Source: Rugosibacter aromaticivorans | GTDB taxonomy: Bacteria > Pseudomonadota > Gammaproteobacteria > Burkholderiales > Rhodocyclaceae | Length of the DNA stretch: 64,000 nucleotides | Direction of reading: 5' to 3' | Assembly (NCBI RefSeq): GCF_000934545.1 | Contig: NZ_CP010554.1 | Location: forward strand, 2,480,001 to 2,544,000 | Translations under genes and position numbers: made by a program | Notes under the pieces: model-generated | Databases searched by the model: none | What the model saw: only the letters and a program-made list of their open reading frames with translations | What the model was told of the DNA's origin: nothing | In this document: positions 10,114 to 23,698 of the stretch, piece after piece | Numbering within the stretch: position 1 is the stretch's first letter | Layout of the letters: each line of letters begins with the position of its first letter

Positions 10114-10298
10114 GCAGAAAATGCATGCAAGAGGTATGCCGAAAGACAACATACGTTCCGGTAGCGACATCGTGCAGATGTCTGGTCCGAGTTTCAATCC
10201 TCGCCCCCCGTTGCCGAGGGGCGCGACTAGATGTTTACTGGAATGGGCTGCTTGATAACGGGTTTCAATCCTCGCCCCCCGTTGCCGAGGGGCGCGAC

Positions 10299-12295
10299 CC
10301 AAACTATGTGGACAGTGTGACCCCCAGCGAGAATACAGTGGCGCATGCGCTGATGGAACGTGCTCAAGCGGTTCCACGGCTCCCAGAAGAAATGACACTC
10401 TTGGAATTGGTGCAGAGTAGAATCCCGGACGCGCAGCCGATTGACGTTATCGAGGCCGCAGAGGAGTATGCTTCAAAGGTTGAGGGAGGAGACGCGCCCT
10501 TTGACCAGTTGACGTTTGCCGAGCAGGCACAGTGGGTTCGAGCCTACATTAACTGGCAGGATGGTAGTATTACCTCGCAGATAATTACGCGTATTCGTGG
10601 AGACATTGCAGATGCCAACCGACAAGCTACCGTCAGAAAACAGACCCCCGAGCTACAAGGAGCGGCGTCTGGCCCGCGAGGCGACAATGACGCCCGCGGA
10701 GAGGGCCGAGCAGTTGAAAAAGGATCAACTGTGGAAGGAGTTTTCAGACCAGTTCCGGGCGCAGGTGCGGGAGCAGCACGGGGCCTCGAATCAAGCAGTG
10801 CCCCCACAACTGAAGCCGTCAGTGCTTCCCCACGAAGCAGCGATGCCCAAGAGTCAGCCAGCGCGCCCGAAGATCAAGGAGTAACCGCCAGGGCCATTGA
10901 GGCCCGGTGGAACGAAGCAGGGTCAGTTCCGTGGAGAGAGCTGACCGACGAACAGAAGAATTACATCCTCGGTTCCGGCACGTGGGCAGAAGTTGACGAA
11001 GCGGCTTCCGAGGTGCGGGAAGAGCTTGCGCGGGGGGGTGAGGACATGGTGTTCGCCCGCCAGAAGTCAACGGGGGCTCCGCTCAGTGTCGCTCGTGTCC
11101 AGACGATTGTCGACGGGATCATCCGGTTGTGGAAGCCGGAAAGTAAGGCACACGTAATTGTTCTTGGGCGCGCCGAAGAGCTTCCAGCGGAGGTCAAAGA
11201 CCACGCGGCTAAGGAAGGCGTGCCACTGAGTGAAATTCATGGGGTCCTCCATAAAGGGTACGCCTATATAGTAGCGGAAAACACCCGCACCGCAGCGGAC
11301 GTTAAAGAAGCGCTACTGCATGAATCACTGGGGCATGGAGGCCTTCGCGCCTTGCTGGGGGATAGCCGCCCCAAGGTGCTGCTTGAAATTTTCCATCAGG
11401 CGGGCGGTATCGAGGGGCTGCGCACGATGGCGAAGCGGTTCGGTGCGTTGGATCAGTTCGATCTGTACGTCCCTTCCAGCCTGACGACCGATGTCCAGAG
11501 AGTAGCTCTGACGGACGAGCTCATGGCGCAGGTCGCGGGTAAAGCCACGGGGGGTTGGAAAACGGCGATCCTTAAATGGTTGGGCGATCTGCGGCAGTGG
11601 GTGCGCGTGTTTGCAGAAAAAAACGACCTTCCCCTATTAGCGGGCTGGGTTGAGCAGTTCAACTCGGTGGACTTGATACGGATGCTAGCCGAAGCGCGCG
11701 ACGCCGCACTGTCTGGTGCTAGCTGGGATGGCAATGATGTTGCCTTCAGTGTCTCTCCCGATAGCGCGGCGAAAACCGCACCCAGTTCACTGCCGGAGTT
11801 CAAGACTTTTACGGAGTCAACGATTTCCGAAATGGTACAGCGGGCCAAGGCCACGGCGCTTGACCTGACGAGCAAGGCGCTCGACAAGGTCATGTTCCTG
11901 CACGATCTGGTTGAGCGGGCCACCAAGCAGGGGCTCACTTCCGCCGCGGCGTTCCAGCGCGCCATGAATGAAAAGGATCAGATCAAGAACCGCATGGAAA
12001 AAGCGGTCGATGAAATCATGGAGCGGGCCTCCAACGTCACGGACAAAGCCGCCGTGGAGAGCTTTCTGAAAGATTCCACCATGTCACGTAAGTGGGGCTA
12101 TGCACCGTTGTGGAAAAGCGATGTGGTTGTGGATGCGGGAATGAAGTCGCGCTATGAAGCCCTGTCTGCCAGCGGACGCGATGTGGTCGACGCTATCCTG
12201 CAACACGGAGAGAAAACTTATGCTGACGTTAAACGGCTTATGGTTCAGGCAGTCAACACCGAGCTGGATGCAATGGCCAAGCGCTTCCCGCACAA
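10299..12295 (+). other. Phage-like polyvalent-protein gene fragment lodged between two CRISPR repeats
   Basis: The 1,997 bp between repeats 2 and 3 is one uninterrupted plus-strand reading frame with neither start nor stop: an internal piece of a large gene. The encoded text has a helical N-terminal part (ENTVAHALMERAQAV), a Gly/Ala/Ser-rich linker, and then ALLHESLGHGGLRALLGD. The HExxGH-type motif is typical of the metallopeptidase-like domain of very large polyvalent proteins of phages and integrative elements. A helical region follows to KRFPHK. The frame happens to continue through the flanking repeats, but those codons are not part of the gene. Exact family membership is inference; the foreign origin is well supported. 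Confidence 0.8.
10612..10884 (+). CDS. Possible small overlapping gene inside the phage-like insert
   Basis: This frame differs from the main one and encodes 90 aa starting MPTDKLPSENRPPSYKERRL, charged and helix-prone (TPAERAEQLKKDQLWKEF), and ends in its own stop. It lies over the low-complexity linker of the main frame, and its composition looks more protein-like than the main frame there. No ribosome site is convincing. It could be a genuine overlapping phage gene or chance; I do not recognise the protein. Confidence 0.25.
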   Translation: MPTDKLPSENRPPSYKERRLAREATMTPAERAEQLKKDQLWKEFSDQFRAQVREQHGASNQAVPPQLKPSVLPHEAAMPKSQPARPKIKE

Positions 12296-14274
12296 GTTTC
12301 AATCCTCGCCCCCCGTTGCCGAGGGGCGCGACTTGAAAAGATCGCGCCGCTCGTTGCACAGGGGATGTTTCAATCCTCGCCCCCCGTTGCCGAGGGGCGC
12401 GACCCAAATCAGGAAGCACCGCGCCGGCCCCATCGTGTTTCAATCCTCGCCCCCCGTTGCCGAGGGGCGCGACCCCATCACGGCGTCGCCAATGACCCCT
12501 GACATCGTTTGTTTCAATCCTCGCCCCCCGTTGCCGAGGGGCGCGACACAGCAAGATGTGTAAATGCGGGTGCCAGCCATTGTTTCAATCCTCGCCCCCC
12601 GTTGCCGAGGGGCGCGACCTGGCTGTTTTCCGATCTGTGATGAAACTTGATCGGTTTCAATCCTCGCCCCCCGTTGCCGAGGGGCGCGACTAGCGAGATT
12701 ACCGCCTTCTTGCCACACTGCCCAGTTTCAATCCTCGCCCCCCGTTGCCGAGGGGCGCGACCCGGAAAACGGGGCAAGCGGCTGCTTTTTGGATGGTTTC
12801 AATCCTCGCCCCCCGTTGCCGAGGGGCGCGACTATGCGAATCGTTCGCGGCGTTTAAATCCACCACTGTTTCAATCCTCGCCCCCCGTTGCCGAGGGGCG
12901 CGACCCGAGTTGAAGAAGGTTTCCGGCTAGATCATGGAGTTTCAATCCTCGCCCCCCGTTGCCGAGGGGCGCGACGTTAAAAAAGCCTGTTCCTATTGGG
13001 TAAAAGCAATGTTTCAATCCTCGCCCCCCGTTGCCGAGGGGCGCGACTGGGGCCGAAGTTATTGAGTCGACGAAATGGGCAGGTTTCAATCCTCGCCCCC
13101 CGTTGCCGAGGGGCGCGACGAGAAAGAGAGGGCGATTCGTCTGCGTTTGCGAGATGTTTCAATCCTCGCCCCCCGTTGCCGAGGGGCGCGACAACGAAAA
13201 GCTGCGTTAACGAAGGTGGTGGCATGAGTTTCAATCCTCGCCCCCCGTTGCCGAGGGGCGCGACGTGGGCTCATCTTCTAATGTAAGCAAATATGCAGCT
13301 GTTTCAATCCTCGCCCCCCGTTGCCGAGGGGCGCGACTTTTGATGATGATTATGGAATATCGACTCTCAAAAGGTGTTTCAATCCTCGCCCCCCGTTGCC
13401 GAGGGGCGCGACAGGCTGGCCCTTGGCTGAGTTCGCGGAACTGGAATGTTTCAATCCTCGCCCCCCGTTGCCGAGGGGCGCGACCCCTAGCCACCTTTTC
13501 CTCGGCACACACGAAGAAGTTTCAATCCTCGCCCCCCGTTGCCGAGGGGCGCGACGACGGCTGGCGCAGAAGGGATGACGGCGTTTGAAAAGTTTCAATC
13601 CTCGCCCCCCGTTGCCGAGGGGCGCGACGAAGCGTTTGCGTATCCGCTAACAATCCAGCAATGTTTCAATCCTCGCCCCCCGTTGCCGAGGGGCGCGACC
13701 TTTCCGGTAGGTTTCCCACGCGCCTGGCGTCAAGTTTCAATCCTCGCCCCCCGTTGCCGAGGGGCGCGACGTCAACAAAAGCAGAAGTAAAAGCAAACCC
13801 TATGGGTTTCAATCCTCGCCCCCCGTTGCCGAGGGGCGCGACCGGCTATGACATGCGAATCATTCCCTCCGCGGGAAATGTTTCAATCCTCGCCCCCCGT
13901 TGCCGAGGGGCGCGACTTTCACCAGCTACATTTCTGCGAAGTACAAACTACCGTTTCAATCCTCGCCCCCCGTTGCCGAGGGGCGCGACCGTAATTCGGC
14001 CCGGTAACACCTTTTGAACTAGCGTTTCAATCCTCGCCCCCCGTTGCCGAGGGGCGCGACGCGGCCAAAGTTCGGCCACTTTCGCATTTCGCTCCGTTTC
14101 AATCCTCGCCCCCCGTTGCCGAGGGGCGCGACATCGGGGAGCGTTCCAAGTTTCCGTCTTACGATGGTTTCAATCCTCGCCCCCCGTTGCCGAGGGGCGC
14201 GACAAGAGTGCGCGAAGCTTTCGCCGCGCTTGGGCATGTTTCAATCCTCGCCCCCCGTTGCCGAGGGGCGCGAC

Positions 14275-14468
14275 GGTTCGCGCACAACAGGCGGAAATCA
14301 CGGATATTTCGGCACGCATTTCGCGAACCGGTGCTCGAACCATTTTCCGTGCTTCCATTGGATACCCAATCAACTGACGTTGTCCCAAGAATTCAACTAC
14401 TTGAATGTTGCGCGAACCTCCCCGCTTTTTCATGTGAGCTTAGGGTTCGCGCTACACGCCATCACCTT
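14275..14468 (-). promoter_or_regulatory. CRISPR leader
   Basis: These 194 bp separate the cas2 stop from the first (youngest) repeat and carry no gene. Four copies of an 8-bp motif are visible: GGTTCGCG at 14275-14282 and 14444-14451, and its reverse complement CGCGAACC at 14322-14329 and 14411-14418. One copy abuts the first repeat, where new spacers integrate. The leader presumably contains the array promoter. Confidence 0.75.
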
Positions 14469-14759
14469 CTACAACACGAGCGGCCCATCAAAATCGGTGG
14501 CTTTGAAAACCCCGTGCTCTCTCACTTCGCAGCCTCTCGACTCGGCCAAACGATAGAGACGCAGATTATCCTCCTCCGGCTTGATTTCGGCCAGCAGGCG
14601 CCGCTCCAATTCTTCCATTTTTGCCAGATCGATCTGAAATTCGAAGACCGATTTTTGCACTCGCTGCCCAACACCTTCGCACACGCGCGCGACGCGGCGT
14701 AGCCTGCGCCGCCCTTCGCGGGTTTCGGTATTCACGTCGTAGCAGACGATGACCAGCAT
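14469..14759 (-). CDS. cas2: CRISPR-associated Cas2
   Basis: 96 aa starting [20 protein letters not shown], with the conserved beta1 aspartate (D8). The middle [20 protein letters not shown] and the C-terminal part have the ferredoxin-like fold pattern of Cas2. It forms the integrase with Cas1, in which Cas2 is the structural bridge for the incoming DNA. The ATG at 14759 is chosen because the upstream extension would overlap cas1 and lacks homology. It starts 4 bp after the cas1 stop and is the last gene before the leader, the usual I-C order. Confidence 0.96.
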
Positions 14760-14763
14760 GACA

Positions 14764-15795
14764 TCAGCGTAGCAGGAAAGGCAAATAGCTTTCCATATCG
14801 CCGCGCAGGGTGCGGGCAAGAAAGCGCGCCTGCAACTGCGGCAGCAGACCGAGCGCGACCGGCTGCTCCAGCAGCGGATGGGACAGCGTTTCCTGTTTGC
14901 GTTCCTGCCACGCCACCACCACCGTCTTGCGCCCCTGCTCGGCGAGCGTCACGCCACCGCCTTCGTGCAGCGTGAAATCGCCGGCCTGCACCTGACCGCG
15001 ATTCACCAGCGTCAGGGCCAGTCGATCTGCCTGGTGGCGAAACTCTTCCATCAGGTCGAGCGCCAGCGCCGCCCTTCCCGGTCGCACGGCATGCAGGAAA
15101 CCCAACTGCGGATCGAGGCCGACCGATTCCAATGCAGAACGGCAGTCATTCATCAACATGGCATAGAGGAAAGAGAGCAGCGCGTTCATGCGGTCACGCG
15201 GTGGCCGGCGGGTACGGCCGTCCAGCGAAAAGTCCTCCCGCACATCGGTGCGCACGATGAAGTTGATGCACCCGAAATACTGCCGCGCCGCCTCGCCTTC
15301 AACGCCGCGCACGACATCCAGATCAGCCGCGCCGGGCAAAGCACGCAGGGCCGCCGCCAGGTCATCAGCACCGCGCGACAAGACACTGGCATCGGCCGCA
15401 TCCTTTGCCTCGCGCGCGCCGCGCAGCAACACCTGCCGGCTGTTGCGCAGCTTGCCGGCAATGCAGGCGCGCGCCACTTCCAGCGTGAAGGCCGCGTCAT
15501 TCGCCTTCTCATGCTGGGCACGGCGCAGCAGGATGTTGCCCGACACCGGACCTTCCAGCCGCGCCTTGAAACGGCCATTGCCGTCGAGCAGCACCAGACT
15601 CTGTCCGTTGTCCGCCAAGCGGTGCATCAGGGCTGGCGAGACCAGCACGTTGCCAAAGACGACGATGCCACCCAGATGATGCAGCGGTACGCGCAATTTC
15701 GTTTCGCGCTCCACTTCGATCCGCACCGTGTCGTTATCCAGGTGCAGATAGGACAGAGGCGTGGTGACGTAAAGGGTATTGAGGAGAGTTTGCAT
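14764..15795 (-). CDS. cas1: CRISPR integrase Cas1
   Basis: 343 aa starting [20 protein letters not shown]. The metal-binding residues are recognisable: Glu in [10 protein letters not shown], His in [11 protein letters not shown], and the acidic [13 protein letters not shown] segment. Cas1 integrates new spacers at the leader-repeat junction. The ATG at 15795 lies 1 bp after the cas4 stop, so cas4-cas1-cas2 are tightly coupled. The base composition is visibly richer in G+C than that of the effector genes upstream. Confidence 0.97.
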
Positions 15796-15796
15796 C

Positions 15797-16447
15797 TCAG
15801 TTTCCCGGTTCAAATTCCGGTTCGAATAAATGCGCCACCAGCCTGCGCCGCTTGCCTTGCCCCGCAAGCGGCGCAGGCTGGCAAAGATCGATCAGCGAAC
15901 ATTCCTTGCAACGCTGGTCATTAACCGGCGGCGGCAAAGTCGGCGCTGACAGGGCGGTGCGCACTTCCACCACGCACGTCTCAACCGCCTGCCGCAGTTC
16001 CAGCGTGATCGCCACCTCGCGCCGACGGCGGGAAGTAGCGTGGTAAATGGCGCCGAGGGGCACGGCCTTGCCGGTCATCTCTTCGAGACACAGTGCTTGA
16101 GCGGCAAGCTGAATATCGTCGTTGACCCACTTCTTGCGAGCGCCGTGCTTGTACTCGACCGGATAAGGCGTGCCGTCGACCAAGAACTCCACTACATCAC
16201 ACTTGCCAACCAAGCCAAGACGTTCGCACCAGACCGGCAGAGCCGTCTCGATCTTTCGACCACTCACGGTTTCAGGGTGAATGACATCCACCCTGTCATG
16301 TTCCGCAACGCCGCGTGCCGTATGGATATTATTCGTGAACTCGCCCTCAAGATGAATCAGGCAGCAACGGCGCGGACAATAAGTCCAATGGTTGAGCGCC
16401 GATAGCGGGATGGCATCGTCGGCATTCCAGGTCATAGATGACAGCAT
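15797..16447 (-). CDS. cas4: CRISPR-associated exonuclease Cas4
   Basis: 216 aa. The PD-(D/E)XK nuclease core shows DVVEFLVDG and PVEYKHGARKKW. The iron-sulfur cysteines lie at YCPRRC (about residue 24) and C-terminal CKECSLIDLC. Cas4 trims prespacers and selects the PAM, with Cas1-Cas2. The start at 16447 has GAG a few bases upstream; an ATG 12 nt inside is an alternative. The AT-poor segment at about 15936 resembles the dispersed repeat weakly, but encodes the normal LPPPVND text of the family. Confidence 0.96.
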   Translation of the reverse strand: MLSSMTWNADDAIPLSALNHWTYCPRRCCLIHLEGEFTNNIHTARGVAEHDRVDVIHPETVSGRKIETALPVWCERLGLVGKCDVVEFLVDGTPYPVEYKHGARKKWVNDDIQLAAQALCLEEMTGKAVPLGAIYHATSRRRREVAITLELRQAVETCVVEVRTALSAPTLPPPVNDQRCKECSLIDLCQPAPLAGQGKRRRLVAHLFEPEFEPGN

Positions 16448-16454
16448 GCCAATC

Positions 16455-16907
16455 TCACACGCTCAAAACTTCTTCTTGCGCAATAAACAAACGGATACGG
16501 CTTGGCAGTTCCTCTTCCGCAAAATGACAGCACACGGCATCCCGTACTTGCACGCGCAAGCTGTGCAGGTCGTCTGCTTCGGTAAAAATATCTACCTCAA
16601 TCGCACTGGCGACGTAGCCATCATTCGGTGTCTGCTCGGCCACAAACTGGATTTCGCTCGTGTGCGCCAGCTTTGCTCCGGGAGTCAGTGCGAGGAGTCG
16701 ACGCGCCGACGCAAGATGTTTTGCATAGGCCAGCGCGGCGAGGATGTCCTCCCGTGTGATATTGGGATAGGACTCCAAGATGTCATCGAAGGACCAGTCG
16801 CTGTCTAAACATCCCAGGATCAACTCGACGGATATCCGCGTGCCCTTGATGGTTGGTTTGCCGAGCAGGATGTCGGGGTTGGAAATGATGCGGTCGCGCC
16901 AGTCCAT
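16455..16907 (-). CDS. DUF433 antitoxin-like domain fused to a HicB-like domain, inside the cas operon
   Basis: 150 aa from the ATG at 16907 (MDWRDRIISNPDILLGKPTI). Residues 1-75 are DUF433 (GKPTIKGTRISVELIL, YPNITREDILAALAYA), a VapB-like winged-helix antitoxin family. Residues about 85-150 (EIQFVAEQTPNDGYVASA, IFTEADDLHSLRVQVRDAV, CCHFAEEE, IRLFIAQEEVLSV) match the small HicB-like proteins often mis-named 2-oxoisovalerate dehydrogenase. These normally occur as two separate genes of about 75 and 70 aa. No toxin partner (DUF5615, PIN or HicA) is adjacent. It ends 7 bp before cas4 and follows a 140-bp gap after cas7. Role unknown; an antitoxin or autoregulator is plausible. Confidence 0.8.
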   Translation of the reverse strand: MDWRDRIISNPDILLGKPTIKGTRISVELILGCLDSDWSFDDILESYPNITREDILAALAYAKHLASARRLLALTPGAKLAHTSEIQFVAEQTPNDGYVASAIEVDIFTEADDLHSLRVQVRDAVCCHFAEEELPSRIRLFIAQEEVLSV

Positions 16908-17047
16908 TGTCACTGTCTCATTGACATGATGTTCAGTTTAATGTGTTCCAGTTGGGTCGTCAGTCTTGCCGCATGGTAGTTAGGATAATTTCCAGAATAG
17001 CTGCGGTGGCTATCTGGGCATCAATGGCGCGAATTCTGCATGACAAA

Positions 17048-17998
17048 TCACGCATCGTGTCTGTTGTGCAGTCGCACACCTTTCGGCAGATTATCTTTCG
17101 TCCATCCGCAAGTCACATGGTAATCAGCAAAAGATTCGGGGAAGCCCTTTGCCTTCGCTTCGTTGGTCAGATCGACCTTGATGCCTTCAAACAGTTTGTG
17201 CGCATGTGCGCAGCCCAAGCGGGCTTCGCGTTTATTTTGCTCTGCGTTGTTCTCGTGCTGTGTACCAACGTGTTCGAAGTCGTAAAGTCCGCGCACCACC
17301 ATCTCGCCGCGCGCTGCGGAGCGATCATGCTCGAACATTTGCAGTATCGCTTTGAATAGCAAGTCGAGGTCGGCTTGTGTAAAGCCTGTGCGTTCTGCGA
17401 AGGCAGGAGAAACATAGCCCTTCGCGGCATAGAGCGCATACGGGACGATATGTTTATTGCCCATGGTGCGCTCCTTGGCCTTATCTGCCTCTTTGGTCAC
17501 AGCACAACGGGTGATGGTGATTTCAAGCGGTGTAATTGGATGAAAAGATTGGCCGAAGGTGAACTGCACCGGGCCGCGCACTTGACCCCACGCAGAGCCT
17601 TTCATAACGTCGTCGCCAGTAGAGAGCACTCCGCCGAAAGTGCGAACATCATAAAATTCCCGACATAGCCATTTCATTGCTGCTTCAGCCTGTTTATCCT
17701 TGTCCTTTTGCTGCGCCTTGGCCGCTTCGATTCCTTTTTTCTGCTCGGTTTCAATCACCGCCCCTTGCTTGATGAGGATGTTGAATCCATTGGCGTCGCT
17801 ATCGGCGCGACCATGTGGGAATTGTTCGACGAAATTTCTGACTTTACGCTTCAGGCACACGTCGGAGACAAGCCCGCGATTCGAGTTCGGGTCGAGCCGA
17901 GGCATATTGCCTGCATCAGGATCGCCATTCGGGTTGCCGTTGGTCACCTCAAACAACATCAGAAAATCGTGTCGGTTGGTCAGAATGTTATCGCTCAT
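17048..17998 (-). CDS. cas7c: Type I-C Cascade backbone Cas7c (Csd2)
   Basis: 316 aa. The start NRHDFLMLFEVTNGNPNGDP followed by NMPRLDPNSNRGLVSDVCLKRKVR is the signature opening of Csd2/Cas7 proteins. VRGPVQFTFGQSFHPI and MGNKHIVPYALYAAKGYVSP are further family blocks. Several copies polymerise along the crRNA in Cascade. The ATG at 17998 is well placed, 30 bp after cas8c. The length is in the usual range. A 140-bp gap to the next gene downstream marks the border between effector and adaptation genes. Confidence 0.96.
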   Translation of the reverse strand: MSDNILTNRHDFLMLFEVTNGNPNGDPDAGNMPRLDPNSNRGLVSDVCLKRKVRNFVEQFPHGRADSDANGFNILIKQGAVIETEQKKGIEAAKAQQKDKDKQAEAAMKWLCREFYDVRTFGGVLSTGDDVMKGSAWGQVRGPVQFTFGQSFHPITPLEITITRCAVTKEADKAKERTMGNKHIVPYALYAAKGYVSPAFAERTGFTQADLDLLFKAILQMFEHDRSAARGEMVVRGLYDFEHVGTQHENNAEQNKREARLGCAHAHKLFEGIKVDLTNEAKAKGFPESFADYHVTCGWTKDNLPKGVRLHNRHDA

Positions 17999-18027: not shown

Positions 18028-19953
18028 TTATTCGTTATCGGCAAGCTCTAACACGTCGTCAATTTCTTCAGGCTTCAGTTCGCCCGCTTTTTTCTTTTTC
18101 ATGTATTCATCAATGGCTGCTTTACGTGCCGCCATTTGCTGATAGAAACCCAATGCAAATCGCCCCTGCTCGACCAAGGTGAAGTAACGGGAAAATTGCG
18201 GAGGAGTGCCTGGTATTGTCGGCACAAACAAACCGGCAATTTCAATAATGGAAGTCTTGATTTTGGCGGCTGCCCGTTGGCCATTCTCACCTTGTTGCCG
18301 GAGCTTTTTCAAATGGTGTTGATGAAGTTTCCAGAGTAGGGAGAATGCTGTATTAGGTGTTGTCGAGGCGGAGCCAAAGTAACGTTCAGCAATGGTTGAT
18401 CCATCAAAACTACTTCCATGAGCAGATCGTTGGAGCGAGTCGAAAACTGCCAGCAATCTCCCGCAGTTATAGGCAGGATCATCGGTTTCAAAAACGTGTG
18501 TTTTCATTTCTGTTTTCCCCTCATTTCGTAGTTGGTGGTTGAGTATCAGTTTAATCAGGGCAAAGCGGCTTTGATCGTACAAAGCTTTCAAACCGTTCTT
18601 GGCGACGTTGGCTTTGAGGCGATCCAGAACAATCTTAAGCAATGTGATTGGAAGCGACTCATTCTTCAGTGCGGCGCGATAGAGTGCAGCAATCAAATCG
18701 GGATTGAGTTTTTCGCGGTCGAATTTACCATCGCTTTTTCGACTGATGGTGGTACATGCAAGCTGGTCAATAGACAAAGGGGCGCGGTCATCTTGTAAAG
18801 CACCATTGCCGCCGTATGGGGCAATGTCTAAATCCTCGAACCATTGCTTGAAATTTGACTCTGCATCCTGAACTGTAATTTGGAGCCAGTCCTTGACGAT
18901 AATGCGTGGCCCTGCCGCAGAAAACGTAATGGCGATAAATCGCTCAAGCCCGTTTGGTGGCTGTTGAAATCCGCTCCACGGCGTAACCATAAATGCCCTG
19001 ATGGTTCTCGGGTTTGGCTGCTTTAACAGGCGGGCAAAAATACTGGAAATCGCTTCCGTTTTTACAGCCCAAAAACACAGCCAAGCGGGGCCAATAGAAA
19101 GCCAATTATCTTCCTGTTTACTGAGATACTGTATGGCTGCGAGATAAGCTTTTGAAGCTTCGATTGATACCGGTGCATTGAAACTCTGCTCTAAGCCGTA
19201 AGAGCAAAAAGCATCTTTATCAAAACCAACCAACCCTGCACCCGTAGGCCTTGCTGGTTTCGGCAGGCCTGTCACCATCGGCGTATGGGTTCGCGCGATG
19301 GAAACATTCTGTTGGCCGGTGATTAGACACAATCCCTTTTGAGCTGTGCCATCAGTCTCCGCCACTTCGCCCTTATAGGCTTGCCGCCAATAAGGGCGAA
19401 CAACATTTTCGTCGTTGATGAGAATCTCGCCATCAACAGAAAATGTAAGAAGATCGGAACCTAATTTGATTTCACTGCCATCTGCTTTTCGAATCATCCA
19501 TTTTGGCGACCCCGATGTTTCCAACCTCAAGAACGATGGCGGGCTTCCCTGGAGCCGCTTGTAAAATCTAAGCAGCAAAGCAAATGCAGGGTATTGTGTG
19601 GTCGTAGATGCCTTAGCGATCTGCCGCCAAAAATCATCATGTTTTACACGAAGGTTGTTTGTAGCACGAAGATTTAGCTCTTGCTCAGGCTTCGTATTCA
19701 AGTTGAATAATGCGCCAATGTCATCCACCAGAAAATCGGAAACTTGCCCGCCGCCAGTTGGCCTTGTGGTTTTGGGTATCGAAAATTCAAGCGCTTTTTT
19801 CTCTTTGTCTATGTGAGTTTCGATTGGGCCTTCACCGATTAGCTGACCTTCCTTGTCGAGTTGGATAATCCAGCGAACGGCTTTTTTGACAAAAGCTGGG
19901 TCTTCCAACAGGTTTTTAGTTAACGCAAAGTCGTATAGCTCTTTAAGCAGCAT
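18028..19953 (-). CDS. cas8c: Type I-C Cascade large subunit Cas8c (Csd1)
   Basis: 641 aa starting MLLKELYDFALTKNLLEDPA. Blocks such as LCLITGQQNVSIARTHTP, GLVGFDKDAFCSYGLEQ, PWSGFQQPPNG and FSLLWKLHQHHLKKLRQQGE belong to the Csd1 family. It recognises the PAM and, in I-C, also supplies the small subunit by internal translation. It begins 2 bp after the cas5c stop. DNA here is distinctly less G+C-rich than the flanking chromosome, consistent with horizontal origin. Confidence 0.96.
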   Translation of the reverse strand: MLLKELYDFALTKNLLEDPAFVKKAVRWIIQLDKEGQLIGEGPIETHIDKEKKALEFSIPKTTRPTGGGQVSDFLVDDIGALFNLNTKPEQELNLRATNNLRVKHDDFWRQIAKASTTTQYPAFALLLRFYKRLQGSPPSFLRLETSGSPKWMIRKADGSEIKLGSDLLTFSVDGEILINDENVVRPYWRQAYKGEVAETDGTAQKGLCLITGQQNVSIARTHTPMVTGLPKPARPTGAGLVGFDKDAFCSYGLEQSFNAPVSIEASKAYLAAIQYLSKQEDNWLSIGPAWLCFWAVKTEAISSIFARLLKQPNPRTIRAFMVTPWSGFQQPPNGLERFIAITFSAAGPRIIVKDWLQITVQDAESNFKQWFEDLDIAPYGGNGALQDDRAPLSIDQLACTTISRKSDGKFDREKLNPDLIAALYRAALKNESLPITLLKIVLDRLKANVAKNGLKALYDQSRFALIKLILNHQLRNEGKTEMKTHVFETDDPAYNCGRLLAVFDSLQRSAHGSSFDGSTIAERYFGSASTTPNTAFSLLWKLHQHHLKKLRQQGENGQRAAAKIKTSIIEIAGLFVPTIPGTPPQFSRYFTLVEQGRFALGFYQQMAARKAAIDEYMKKKKAGELKPEEIDDVLELADNE

Positions 19954-19955
19954 CG

Positions 19956-20774
19956 CTATTCTCCCGCAACTCGATTACGTGCCAAGCGGACACGCTGCGG
20001 ATGACAATCGAGCTTTGCGTCTTTTATGTTCGCTTGGAAGAAAACCGCTTCAGGTTTTACCAACGAGCCTTCCCATCTTGGTGCTGCTTTTTTCTTGGGT
20101 AGTTTTTCTTGTTCTTCTTCCTTTAACCAGCGAAAGCCTTGTGTGCGCCGTTCGTGGTCGAACACGTCGTACAGCATTAACCCCAGGTCTTCTTCGGGCC
20201 AGATGCTCTTACAACTTTTGTCGAGTTCCGCTGAACGTCGTTCCAGTGCCGCTTGGGCATCGTCTTCCAAGTCAAAGTCGGCAGCGAATTCGCGGACACC
20301 TAAATACGGGCGGTGATAGCACTTGCCGCTTTTTGCCCGTCGCTCAATTTCTGTCCGGTATGTCTTGATCGGGTGACCTCTTCTTTTGCCTATGTCACTC
20401 AAATGCACTTCGGCGGTAATGAGGTATTCGACACCCGCCAGCGCGAGCATATTGCGCTGCGTGCCGTCCTCCGCGCCGCCACCTGCCCGAATCGGAGAAA
20501 CCTTCTCAGGCGATTTCATCCAGGTTTTTGCGTTGTCGATACTGATAACGCTGATGACTTCATTACGCCGAAAGGAAAACCAGCATCCGCGCCGGACGAC
20601 ATGTATCGAGTCAATCAAATAATAGATTTCCGGTTCCCAGAAAATCGCTTCGAGAACACCGCGAGCGGCTGAAGGCGTCATGACGGGATAGCTCACGCGC
20701 TCGATCTTCATTTCTGGGCGCGTGAAGCAGGCGTAATCGCCCCAAACGCGGATGGTGATAGAGTTGTCGCTCAT
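19956..20774 (-). CDS. cas5c: Cas5c, crRNA endonuclease and Cascade subunit
   Basis: 272 aa from the ATG at 20774 (MSDNSITIRVWGDYACFTRP), which overlaps the cas3 stop (ATGA). The RAMP fold text MTPSAARGVLEAIFW, and KTYRTEIERRAKSGKCYHRP then YLGVREFAADF, are typical of Cas5d/Cas5c, which replaces Cas6 in type I-C by cutting the repeat hairpin and staying bound to the 5' handle. No cas6 is present, as expected. Longer reading upstream would extend into cas3 and is rejected. Confidence 0.96.
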   Translation of the reverse strand: MSDNSITIRVWGDYACFTRPEMKIERVSYPVMTPSAARGVLEAIFWEPEIYYLIDSIHVVRRGCWFSFRRNEVISVISIDNAKTWMKSPEKVSPIRAGGGAEDGTQRNMLALAGVEYLITAEVHLSDIGKRRGHPIKTYRTEIERRAKSGKCYHRPYLGVREFAADFDLEDDAQAALERRSAELDKSCKSIWPEEDLGLMLYDVFDHERRTQGFRWLKEEEQEKLPKKKAAPRWEGSLVKPEAVFFQANIKDAKLDCHPQRVRLARNRVAGE

Positions 20775-23044
20775 GCAAAAAAGTCCTCCGTCGGGCGTTT
20801 GTCGATAACAATGCCAAGGTTGGGATGATACCAACCTTCGGCTAACACATTGATTTCAAGATTGGGTAACAGCGGCGAGATAGCTTTGTGCATAACAAGC
20901 TTTTGAAAATCGCGCGAATGCAGATTGACCATGTAGCGTTGCAGCCGTCTCAAGTCGTCGCGACTGAAGCGCGGCTGGCCTTTGATGACAGGGCGCGTGC
21001 GAATTTCTTCGACGAGGCTACAGCCTTTGCCATAAGGGACGATGACTGCCTGTGTGTCGTTTTCTATGACTTTCGCCAGCCTGGCAACTTTGCGGAAGTG
21101 CAGTTTTTCCCGTTCGCATTGAATATTTTTTTGATCGGTCGGCACGAGTTGATGAAGTCCATCAAAATACCGTCCAAACAGCTCGTGGTCGGTTGCAAGT
21201 GTGTCGGCCTCGACCTGTGCAAGCAGTGTAGCTGTAATGTCTGAGGCAGTGCGATACTCACCTGGGGGCAGCTTGTTGTCTTCAGGGCGAAAAACGATGA
21301 CCTCACCGAAAGCGGGCTTGCCCGCCTCGTCGCACAAGCGATTCTCGCGGTTGCAACGCCCGGCAGCTTGGACAATGGAATCAAGAGGGCCGAGAGCGCG
21401 CCAGACAATAGGGAAATCCACATCCACGCCCGCTTCGATCAGTTGGGTTGAGACAAGGCGGCAGGGCTGCTTATTGCGCAAACGATAACGAATGGTATCG
21501 GGCTCAGGTTCACGATCATCGCCAAGCACAGTAAAGCGGTGCTCGGCGCACATAGCCGAAGATAGATGAAACACCGCGTCTCTTTCTTTCTGAGGAACAG
21601 TACGGCGTAGTTTCTCCCATAAATCATAAGCGTGACTGCGAATATTCACGATGCACAAGGCTTGGTCACGTAGAGCCATTTGTTCGGCTAAAACATTCCA
21701 TCCGGTGGTTTCATCAGGCTTGGGTGGCTGAATAGATACCCGGCGCAGGCTGTGAAAATTAGCCTCGGTGCTGCCCTGAGTTATTTCTTGAATTTCACCT
21801 AGCCTGAAACCCTCGCTGAGAGATGAGGGACGATATTGGAAAGCAGGTTGGGTTGCCGTTGAGAACACGAAGCTGACGCCGTAGTGATCGCGCAGCTCAC
21901 GAAACACGTTGAGCAACGGATTGAGCAAGTGCGATGGCAGCGTTTGCACTTCATCGAAAATCACCACCGAATGCGCGATGTTGTGGAGCTTGCGGCAGTG
22001 TGAGGTACGGTTTGCGAACAGCGATTCGATGAACTGCACCGAGGTCGTAACGATGATAGGCGCATCCCAGTTTTCTGCCGCATATTCGTTTGGGTGTTTT
22101 TCAAAGGGGGCGCGCGACCTCGTTTCACCGGTATCTTCCGGCACATTCACAGCGGAGTGATGTTCAATGACTATGCCAAGGTTTGCTGGGTCGAGGATGC
22201 GCCGGTATTGAGCTGCGTTCTGTTCGATGATTGAAAGGTAAGGGATGACGACAATAATCCGCCGAAGCTCATGTTGGGGTTGTGCGGCATGAGCCAAGGC
22301 GAAAGCCATTCCCGCCAGTGTCTTGCCACCGCCGGTTGGAACGGTCAGTGAGAAGAATCCCGGTGATTCTTGTGCCTTGTCGAGGCATTGCTGAAAGATG
22401 CTGTTACGAATGGCATTGAGTTTGCCGTCGCTCGATTTGCTTTCTTTCTCGGTAATCAGCAGCCGGAGCAATTCGGCGGCTTGAAGTTTGTGGGTTGCTC
22501 TTGATGCTATTTTGTAGTGCGCCTCAGTATCGAGGAAATCGGCATCAACCAGCGTTGAGAACAGCATCCGAATGTAGAACTCGGCACTGTGGCTCTTGTT
22601 TTCTACAAAGAGCGGTTCGGCAATTTTTTGGGGAATCTTGCCCAACTCATCCTTGAATCGCTCGGCAAGCAACGGCACTCGCTCAGCCGTCCGATATGTC
22701 GCACCTTCTACCAAGGTTTGTAATTCGTTGTGGTCATGCAATCCGGCATGATGCCCAGCAATGGCGAATGCAGGACCAAGCCAGTCCTGCCGATAAGCCA
22801 AAGCCGCACCGTACACCGCATGATGAGTTTCAGTGCTGCTATCTCGCTCGGCTCGCAAGTATTGCTGAAACTCATCGCGATACTTGCCGAGATCGTGCAG
22901 CAGTCCTGCCCAGTAAGCGGCATCACTCAAGCCGGGAGAGTTTTTTTCGGCAAATCCGCGCGCTAAGTTGCCGACTGCTTGCAAGTGATCCCACAGCAGA
23001 TGTGTATTTCCATCTGAGTTGGCTGAATGAGCGAGAAATTCCAT
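20771..23044 (-). CDS. cas3: CRISPR helicase-nuclease Cas3
   Basis: 757 aa. An N-terminal HD nuclease (WDHLQAV, LLHDLGKY, THHAVYGAAL, IAGHHAGLHDH within the first 130 residues) is followed by a superfamily 2 helicase: Walker A VPTGGGKTLAG, motif II IFDEVQTLPSH, SAT-type FSTATQPAF, and motif VI QAAGRCNRENR. It degrades DNA marked by Cascade. It is the first intact gene of the cas operon. Upstream, 214-960 bp away, are two shortened copies of its N-terminal domain. Confidence 0.97.
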   Translation of the reverse strand: MEFLAHSANSDGNTHLLWDHLQAVGNLARGFAEKNSPGLSDAAYWAGLLHDLGKYRDEFQQYLRAERDSSTETHHAVYGAALAYRQDWLGPAFAIAGHHAGLHDHNELQTLVEGATYRTAERVPLLAERFKDELGKIPQKIAEPLFVENKSHSAEFYIRMLFSTLVDADFLDTEAHYKIASRATHKLQAAELLRLLITEKESKSSDGKLNAIRNSIFQQCLDKAQESPGFFSLTVPTGGGKTLAGMAFALAHAAQPQHELRRIIVVIPYLSIIEQNAAQYRRILDPANLGIVIEHHSAVNVPEDTGETRSRAPFEKHPNEYAAENWDAPIIVTTSVQFIESLFANRTSHCRKLHNIAHSVVIFDEVQTLPSHLLNPLLNVFRELRDHYGVSFVFSTATQPAFQYRPSSLSEGFRLGEIQEITQGSTEANFHSLRRVSIQPPKPDETTGWNVLAEQMALRDQALCIVNIRSHAYDLWEKLRRTVPQKERDAVFHLSSAMCAEHRFTVLGDDREPEPDTIRYRLRNKQPCRLVSTQLIEAGVDVDFPIVWRALGPLDSIVQAAGRCNRENRLCDEAGKPAFGEVIVFRPEDNKLPPGEYRTASDITATLLAQVEADTLATDHELFGRYFDGLHQLVPTDQKNIQCEREKLHFRKVARLAKVIENDTQAVIVPYGKGCSLVEEIRTRPVIKGQPRFSRDDLRRLQRYMVNLHSRDFQKLVMHKAISPLLPNLEINVLAEGWYHPNLGIVIDKRPTEDFFA

Positions 23045-23258: not shown

Positions 23259-23567
23259 CTAGCCTTGTGGTCCGAAGCTCTTCCGCGGGTATTGTTGTGG
23301 CCATAGCCCGCCCGCGGTCGAGTGCGTCTTGTCTCGTCCACCCGCCCAGCCTTCGATATGCCCAGTTGGGTCATGTACCTGCCGAATGTAATGCTGATAG
23401 CTGTAACGGTACTTGCCGAGGTCATGCAGCAACCCGGACAGACGCGCCTCATCAGCCCATGGCGTAGCTACTGCAAACTCTCGCGCAAGACGTGATACAG
23501 AGGTCAGATGATCAAATAGGGGATGCCAGATACCGACAGCATTAGCGCTGTGAGCATGAAATAGCAT
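23259..23567 (-). pseudogene. Cas3 HD-domain remnant (first)
   Basis: About 102 aa starting MLFHAHSANAVGIWHPLFDH, with LSGLLHDLGKYRYSYQHYI and KTHSTAGGLW, then a stop after PRKSFGPQG. It corresponds to the first ~100 residues of Cas3 and ends in the HD domain after the KxHxxAG block, with no helicase part. It is homologous to, but clearly diverged from, the intact cas3. It may start 33 nt further upstream. It could be a leftover or a small expressed HD protein. Confidence 0.75.
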
Positions 23568-23698
23568 ATGACACTCCGCCCTTTCCATTCTTTCGTTCAT
23601 ATGTTCAATTGAAATTATTCTTTGGGTACAAGCATAGAATCAGATCACGAATAACAGTATCCCATGGCGTAGGCTCACCAGATGCGCCATCATTGCGG

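Follow-up and report, generated by a model that had tools for sequence, protein, structure and literature searches.

The Cas1-Cas2 length ruler that sets the size of CRISPR spacers is regarded as strict. The closest described exception is SiL-E1, a pseudo-spacer of ~1.9-2 kb in the CRISPR_2 array of the archaeon Sulfolobus islandicus LAL14/1 (Jaubert et al., 2013; PMC3718332). Its authors were aware of no earlier description of a spacer this large. They trace SiL-E1, which covers five ORFs, to a conjugative plasmid resembling pING1 (82% identity) and propose, as its route of entry, either defective processing or recombination with one or more spacers already present, leaving the case unexplained. 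The array carries 24-bp family I repeats, and the cas cassettes of LAL14/1 are of subtypes I-A and III-B (PMC3718332). This was the only kilobase-scale spacer found in the open literature; subscription journals fall mostly outside that coverage, and others may exist. In the current study, we characterized a second known kilobase-scale pseudo-spacer, which is bacterial, lies in a type I-C array and is of phage type, and thus belongs to a kind known since 2013 and unexplained. Ordinary type I-C spacers in this array are 33-38 nt long, whereas the insert measures 1,997 nt. As described for SiL-E1, kilobase-scale DNA of mobile-element type sits exactly between two perfect repeats, is colinear throughout and has ordinary spacers after it; both routes suggested for SiL-E1 are also the leading ones here. 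In contrast to the archaeal, plasmid-derived element with its 24-bp repeat, the present case involves a bacterium, a 37-nt repeat and a piece of one giant phage-type gene instead of five ORFs, and its parent is known only through proteins that are 67-74% identical.

The window analysed here is a stretch of 64,000 nt from Rugosibacter aromaticivorans (GCF_000934545.1, NZ_CP010554.1, positions 2,480,001-2,544,000 of the forward strand), whose genome is a single contig of 2,934,611 bp; feature coordinates below are window positions. The type I-C array (10191-14274, minus strand), delimited by a repeat scan, Rfam model RF01322 and the cas genes to its right, holds 30 repeats, 28 normal spacers and the 1,997-nt pseudo-spacer. 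All 30 copies of the 37-nt repeat are identical, all are matched by RF01322 on the minus strand, and every exact copy in the genome falls inside the array; a scan allowing up to 8 mismatches found no degenerate copies beyond these. Rfam assigns the crRNA to the minus strand, and the cas genes are found on the right; the leader flank is therefore the right-hand one (14275), and the leader region would span the interval from the array to cas2 (14275-14468), as placed from their coordinates. Counted from the leader-distal end, the insert occupies the second position, with only spacer 1 (10228-10261) beyond it. Repeat 2 (10262-10298) adjoins its left end and repeat 3 (12296-12332) its right end, both perfect, and spacers 3-29 with their repeats follow (12333-14237), the repeat scan and length count showing them to be ordinary. 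The regular spacers comprise one of 33 nt, 12 of 34, eight of 35, four of 36, two of 37 and one of 38 nt.

The type I-C gene set is complete, in the order cas3-cas5-cas8c-cas7-cas4-cas1-cas2, and each gene exceeds the cut-off of one or more NCBIfam models. All are on the minus strand: cas2 (14469-14819; PF09827, TIGR01573), type I-C cas1 (14764-15867; TIGR03640, 495 bits against a cut-off of 385), cas4 (15797-16447; TIGR00372, 108 bits against 65), cas7 or csd2 (17048-17998; TIGR02589), cas8c or csd1 (18028-19953; TIGR01863), the type I-C cas5 (19956-20834; TIGR01876) and cas3 (20771-23044; core and HD domain models). The cas1, cas2 and cas4 genes are open reading frames; the coordinates of cas1 and cas2 are those of the longest ORF, so that their starts are uncertain. 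A DUF433 gene (PF04255, E 2e-23; 16455-16913, minus strand) lies between cas7 and cas4, where, to our knowledge, type I-C operons usually carry no gene, and an ORF of 113 aa with a weak HD-domain match (E 2e-4; 23259-23600, minus strand) is found immediately upstream of cas3. The exact repeat was found neither elsewhere in genome_contigs (84,980 species) nor in the eight remaining genomes of the genus, which are drafts of 60-100% completeness. Together with the undegraded state of the leader-distal repeat, this suggests that the array was recently acquired or recently trimmed. Between 10050 and 14500, terminator-like sites numbered five vs. 6.2 in shuffled sequence, and weak promoter-like sites three vs. 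0.9, all three among the normal spacers. When the block of 27 spacers and their repeats at 12296-14280 was compared with other elements, five plasmid records gave weak matches, three of them from Nitratidesulfovibrio, and phage records gave none.

An earlier note, made from the sequence alone, had described a 1,997-bp gene piece in a spacer position between two repeats identical to all others, in an array whose other spacers are 33-38 nt long, and had called it a start-less, stop-less open piece with the motif HESLGH. Our measurements agree on each count. The interval between repeats 2 and 3 (10299-12295) is exactly 1,997 nt, and both flanking repeats are identical to the other 28. On the plus strand, frame 1 of the insert has no stop in 665 codons, compared with 14-34 stops in the other five frames, and its GC content by codon position (0.66/0.46/0.62) is coding-like. 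The frame has neither a start nor a stop of its own, and HESLGH is present in it. The insert occurs once in the genome, and no Pfam family was detected in it at E 0.001. A transposon or insertion sequence was considered and rejected, as terminal inverted repeats and a transposase family are both absent: no inverted repeats of at least 20 nt pair the insert ends, only four of the first 20 bases agree between the ends, and the best 12-base match (eight) is like that of shuffled sequence (mean, 8.3). The idea that the insert is a row of ordinary spacers whose repeats have decayed was likewise rejected, as there is no repeat-like sequence within the insert. Among the control arrays described below, the sole long gap (100 nt) was of this decayed-repeat kind. 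It occurs in a related I-C array (L072; G524:C43:70000-86000), where one degenerate repeat produces an apparent 100-nt spacer; such repeats create false "long spacers" in automatic scans.

The identity of the captured gene was derived from its relatives. A plain protein search with the insert (5.8 billion proteins, 7,998 candidates scored) returned one relative, P0001, an 880-aa protein with 67% identity over 94% of the insert. Lengthening the query allowed full-size proteins to become candidates, and this search recovered the closest relative, P0002 (1,619 aa; 73% identity over 100% of the insert), as well as P0003-P0005 (29-42% identity over 17-28%). Residues 607-1274 of P0002 align with the insert from its first to its last residue. 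P0002 begins 606 residues before the left end and extends past the right end, so both ends of the insert lie in mid-gene; because the alignment reaches the terminal residues, there are no unaccounted bases between gene sequence and repeats. Colinearity with mobile-element-type sequence was thus found at the level of protein, from the P0002 alignment rather than from parent DNA. At the position of HESLGH, both P0001 and P0002 have HEAVGH.

Phages of ~60 kb, among them Erwinia phage PEp14 (Pavtokvirus) and Ochrobactrum phage POI1126, encode giant polyvalent proteins that P0002 resembles. Among 50,697 phage records, 11 matched it, through giant proteins of 57-61-kb phages (E 4e-8 to 2e-6; 21.9-27.3% identity), and nine of these alignments fall within P0002 residues 1143-1589, so that they lie mostly just downstream of the captured part. 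The annotations of the 11 include "DarB-like antirestriction" (three) and "PLxRFG protein" (one), the rest being various. The captured part itself had no match in the same 50,697 records at E 1e-5. P0002 scored 91 bits against NF032893, below the cut-off of 100; at E 0.001, it was assigned to no family of Pfam or PHROG. Insert residues 509-659 align with P0003 at 42% identity, and P0003 has DarB-like and other phage PHROG matches. Six IMG/VR loci carry P0003 relatives; the two that were inspected (L075 and L079) both encode a major head protein ~3 kb upstream of their P0003-like gene. PEp14 encodes a putative integrase beside its lysis genes. In a collection of 72,556 plasmid records, three matched P0002, and the insert had one match, to a PLxRFG protein encoded by a Chromobacterium phragmitis plasmid (31% identity over 23%; E 7e-6). 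On sequence comparison, therefore, P0002 resembles a polyvalent-type protein of the DarB-like/PLxRFG kind, to which the captured part is linked via P0002, P0003 and the one plasmid PLxRFG protein.

These relatives and phage matches support the phage-type polyvalent gene named in the earlier note. The note had also taken the source to be, probably, a targeted phage or element. Of this, the phage-type character of the gene stands, while its parent was not found and relatives also occur on plasmids, so that a phage-plasmid or other element is a possible source and "a targeted phage" is best regarded as presumptive. P0001 is a fragment from assembled public reads; its contigs, the longest of 5,060 bp, may be chimeric. 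Beyond roughly residue 800 it no longer follows P0002. Its final 53 residues resemble a chromosomal stretch of this genus (89% in genome G007, G007:C32:3864-4022), and its last 34 have a 68% match in the R. aromaticivorans genome itself (G000:C1:2684858-2684959). This tail may represent a second junction between a phage gene and a chromosome, or a chimeric contig. As the tail matches a chromosome of the genus, it hints that elements of the P0001/P0002 family may live in this genus.

The intact parent gene, which the earlier note had proposed to look for, was not recovered. Within the genome itself only the insert copy was found, and the comparison of the insert and its end segments with phage sequences brought to light no DNA-level parent in IMG/VR, phage or plasmid records. 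Pattern-based protein scans of IMG/VR with the insert, P0001, P0002 and the insert/P0001 alignment, which reach close relatives only, gave no relative, and 24-26-nt patterns of both insert ends had no match there. In blastn searches, the insert had two phage matches of 28-34 nt (E 0.2-0.6), which we read as chance, and no plasmid match. P0001 had three weak phage matches (E 0.02-0.05). Insert DNA matched six of 395 genomes of the family, namely its own and five with 28-38 nt, again read as chance. P0001 matched 13 of the 395 and P0002 10 of 399 genomes of the order, own genome included in each case; own copy aside, these matches are partial, at 24-49% identity, or concern the chromosomal tail of P0001. 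The insert protein had no match in genome_contigs.

Type I-C Cas4-Cas1-Cas2 is reported to cut directly upstream of GAA (PMC6519985). If the left end of the insert were an old spacer, a plus-strand GAA would therefore be expected after a left segment of 33-38 nt. None is found at those distances; the only candidate (10331-10333, plus strand) lies 32 nt inside the edge of repeat 2. The earlier suggestion that this GAA could be the PAM of a left spacer is not supported, as the required length of 32 nt occurs in none of 146 regular spacers (28 here and 118 in five related arrays). These range from 29 to 39 nt, and only one (29 nt) is shorter than 32. The control survey is small: the pattern was found in six of 379 genomes of the order, own included, and the five arrays were measured in four of the other five genomes, one of them partly (30 of 69 repeats). 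Assuming a PAM fidelity of 0.7 to 0.95 and a 32-nt frequency of 0.3 to 1.4%, a left spacer has a likelihood ratio of 0.18-0.70, i.e., 1.4- to 5.6-fold against, so that the PAM test mildly disfavours an old spacer at this end. At the right end the PAM would fall outside the insert, at a place where P0001 and P0002 have Lys-Arg. With the codon use of the insert, Lys-Arg predicts GCG (46%), ACG (40%), GAG (7%) or AAG (7%), not GAA, a prediction that rests on two mutually close relatives and that one amino-acid change would alter. Spacers 1 and 3-29 had no match in the insert DNA (best, 16-20 positions per strand of 33-38). Against P0001-P0005, one of the 28 (spacer 22, score 29) scored above all of its 30 shuffles (maximum 28), a number that chance predicts.

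The insert is most likely genuine, a pseudo-spacer derived from a phage or from a related mobile element. The explanations listed in the earlier note are the appropriate ones, two of them having been put forward for the Sulfolobus element. Had the insertion been random, two complete repeats and no spare spacer would not have resulted. Two routes that respect the array boundary are left. We lean slightly, in a close choice, toward capture of a ~2-kb phage-type fragment in one piece by the adaptation machinery, since the PAM test weighs mildly against a left spacer; this reading is tentative. A linear ~2-kb fragment of the polyvalent-protein gene would have entered the array as a single unit after Cas4 failed to trim it; Cas1-Cas2 would have joined each of its ends to one side of a repeat, and the repeat would then have been duplicated as in normal acquisition. 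The boundaries are exact at both ends with no leftover spacer, gene sequence judged by P0002 reaches both repeats without unaccounted bases, and cas1, cas2 and cas4 are present, open and above their NCBIfam cut-offs. No left-end spacer with a GAA is needed, and none of 33-38 nt is visible. Against it, we know of no case of kilobase-scale integration by Cas1-Cas2 in cells. Cas4 is also reported to inhibit integration of unprocessed prespacers (PMC6519985). If Cas4 had processed the right end, a PAM would be needed there, and the relatives predict GCG, ACG, GAG or AAG instead of GAA; the evidence against a left-end spacer is itself weak, at 1.4- to 5.6-fold. In favour of this route, faulty protospacer processing has been proposed in the published description of SiL-E1, which has the same layout at ~1.9-2 kb (PMC3718332). 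The broader claim, that type I-C adaptation can integrate a kilobase-scale foreign fragment as one unit and that arrays sometimes capture gene-sized pieces, is more doubtful than its application to this locus.

The other boundary-respecting route is possible and ranks only just behind. Two old spacers against the same phage gene, in the same orientation and ~2 kb apart, would have recombined with a phage DNA fragment, possibly released by interference at both targets; the intervening array content would have been replaced by the phage segment that reaches from the first spacer to the second. Exact boundaries would follow without new Cas chemistry, and a 32-nt left spacer would have the GAA at 10331-10333 as its PAM. 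The elementary step would be supplied by recombination of spacers with their phage targets, of the kind reported by Watson (2018) and Varble (2019) as summarized in PMC8616872, although what that summary describes is transfer of CRISPR-Cas regions by transducing particles, not a phage segment left in an array. Recombination was also among the proposals for the Sulfolobus element (PMC3718332). This route needs two crossovers in tracts of ~34 bp, and it has to contend with the PAM test (none of 146 spacers of 32 nt, no GAA after 33-38 nt, likelihood ratio 0.18-0.70) and with the remaining spacers, none of the 28 matching insert DNA and one of 28 matching P0001-P0005 at chance level. An assembly jump is unlikely as the origin of the insert. 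It would have joined array reads to those of a co-occurring phage through spacer-phage identity, and the single copy of the insert in the genome is in keeping with such an artefact of assembly or library; our verdict rests on the assembled contig rather than on reads. However, the contig resolves two inverted rRNA operons that are identical over 6,138 bp and 1.68 Mb apart. As an exact repeat of this length was resolved, long-range data were probably used, and such an assembly would not normally join on an overlap of ~34 nt; resolving thirty 37-nt repeats requires overlaps of more than 37 nt. An artefact, too, would depend on a left-end spacer, against which the PAM test weighs mildly. Slightly less probable still is a second-hand origin, in which the oversized unit arose elsewhere, in an array sharing this repeat, and arrived by repeat-repeat recombination, or in which repair copied phage DNA between repeats. 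Identical repeats permit exchange in principle, but the exact repeat was not found in genome_contigs (84,980 species) or the eight other genomes of the genus, and the question would merely be moved elsewhere.

The array transcript (minus strand) runs antisense to the phage-type gene, and one usable crRNA could still form, since the handle from repeat 3 would lead into the right end of the insert. Repeat 3 would presumably supply the 5′ handle of a crRNA starting at 12295, following type I-C biology, and the right end (12261-12295, minus strand), if transcribed with repeat 3, could form the guide part, as judged from its array position. The pre-crRNA would thus still yield one crRNA from the insert, made of the repeat-3 handle and the first ~35 nt of the right end, and the remaining ~1.96 kb of insert transcript would be a passive tail or be degraded. 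Within the array the insert should escape attack, because it is flanked by repeat and not by TTC, and the insertion should cost little, because spacer 1 is the only one downstream of it.

Finding a second case in a different domain of life and a different subtype suggests that the phenomenon is recurrent. Gene-sized pseudo-spacers mean either that the array boundary can be respected without the ruler or that phage DNA recombines into arrays through spacers, and such cases could show how CRISPR arrays take up DNA of the wrong size. Once sequenced, the parent element can decide between the routes through the bases beside its two ends. If kilobase capture is real, such events would go unnoticed in adaptation assays in which arrays are scored for growth by a single ~70-bp unit, and the independent archaeal (plasmid, ~1.9 kb) and bacterial (I-C, phage-type, 2.0 kb) cases, nearly equal in size, would represent one general failure mode of the integrase.
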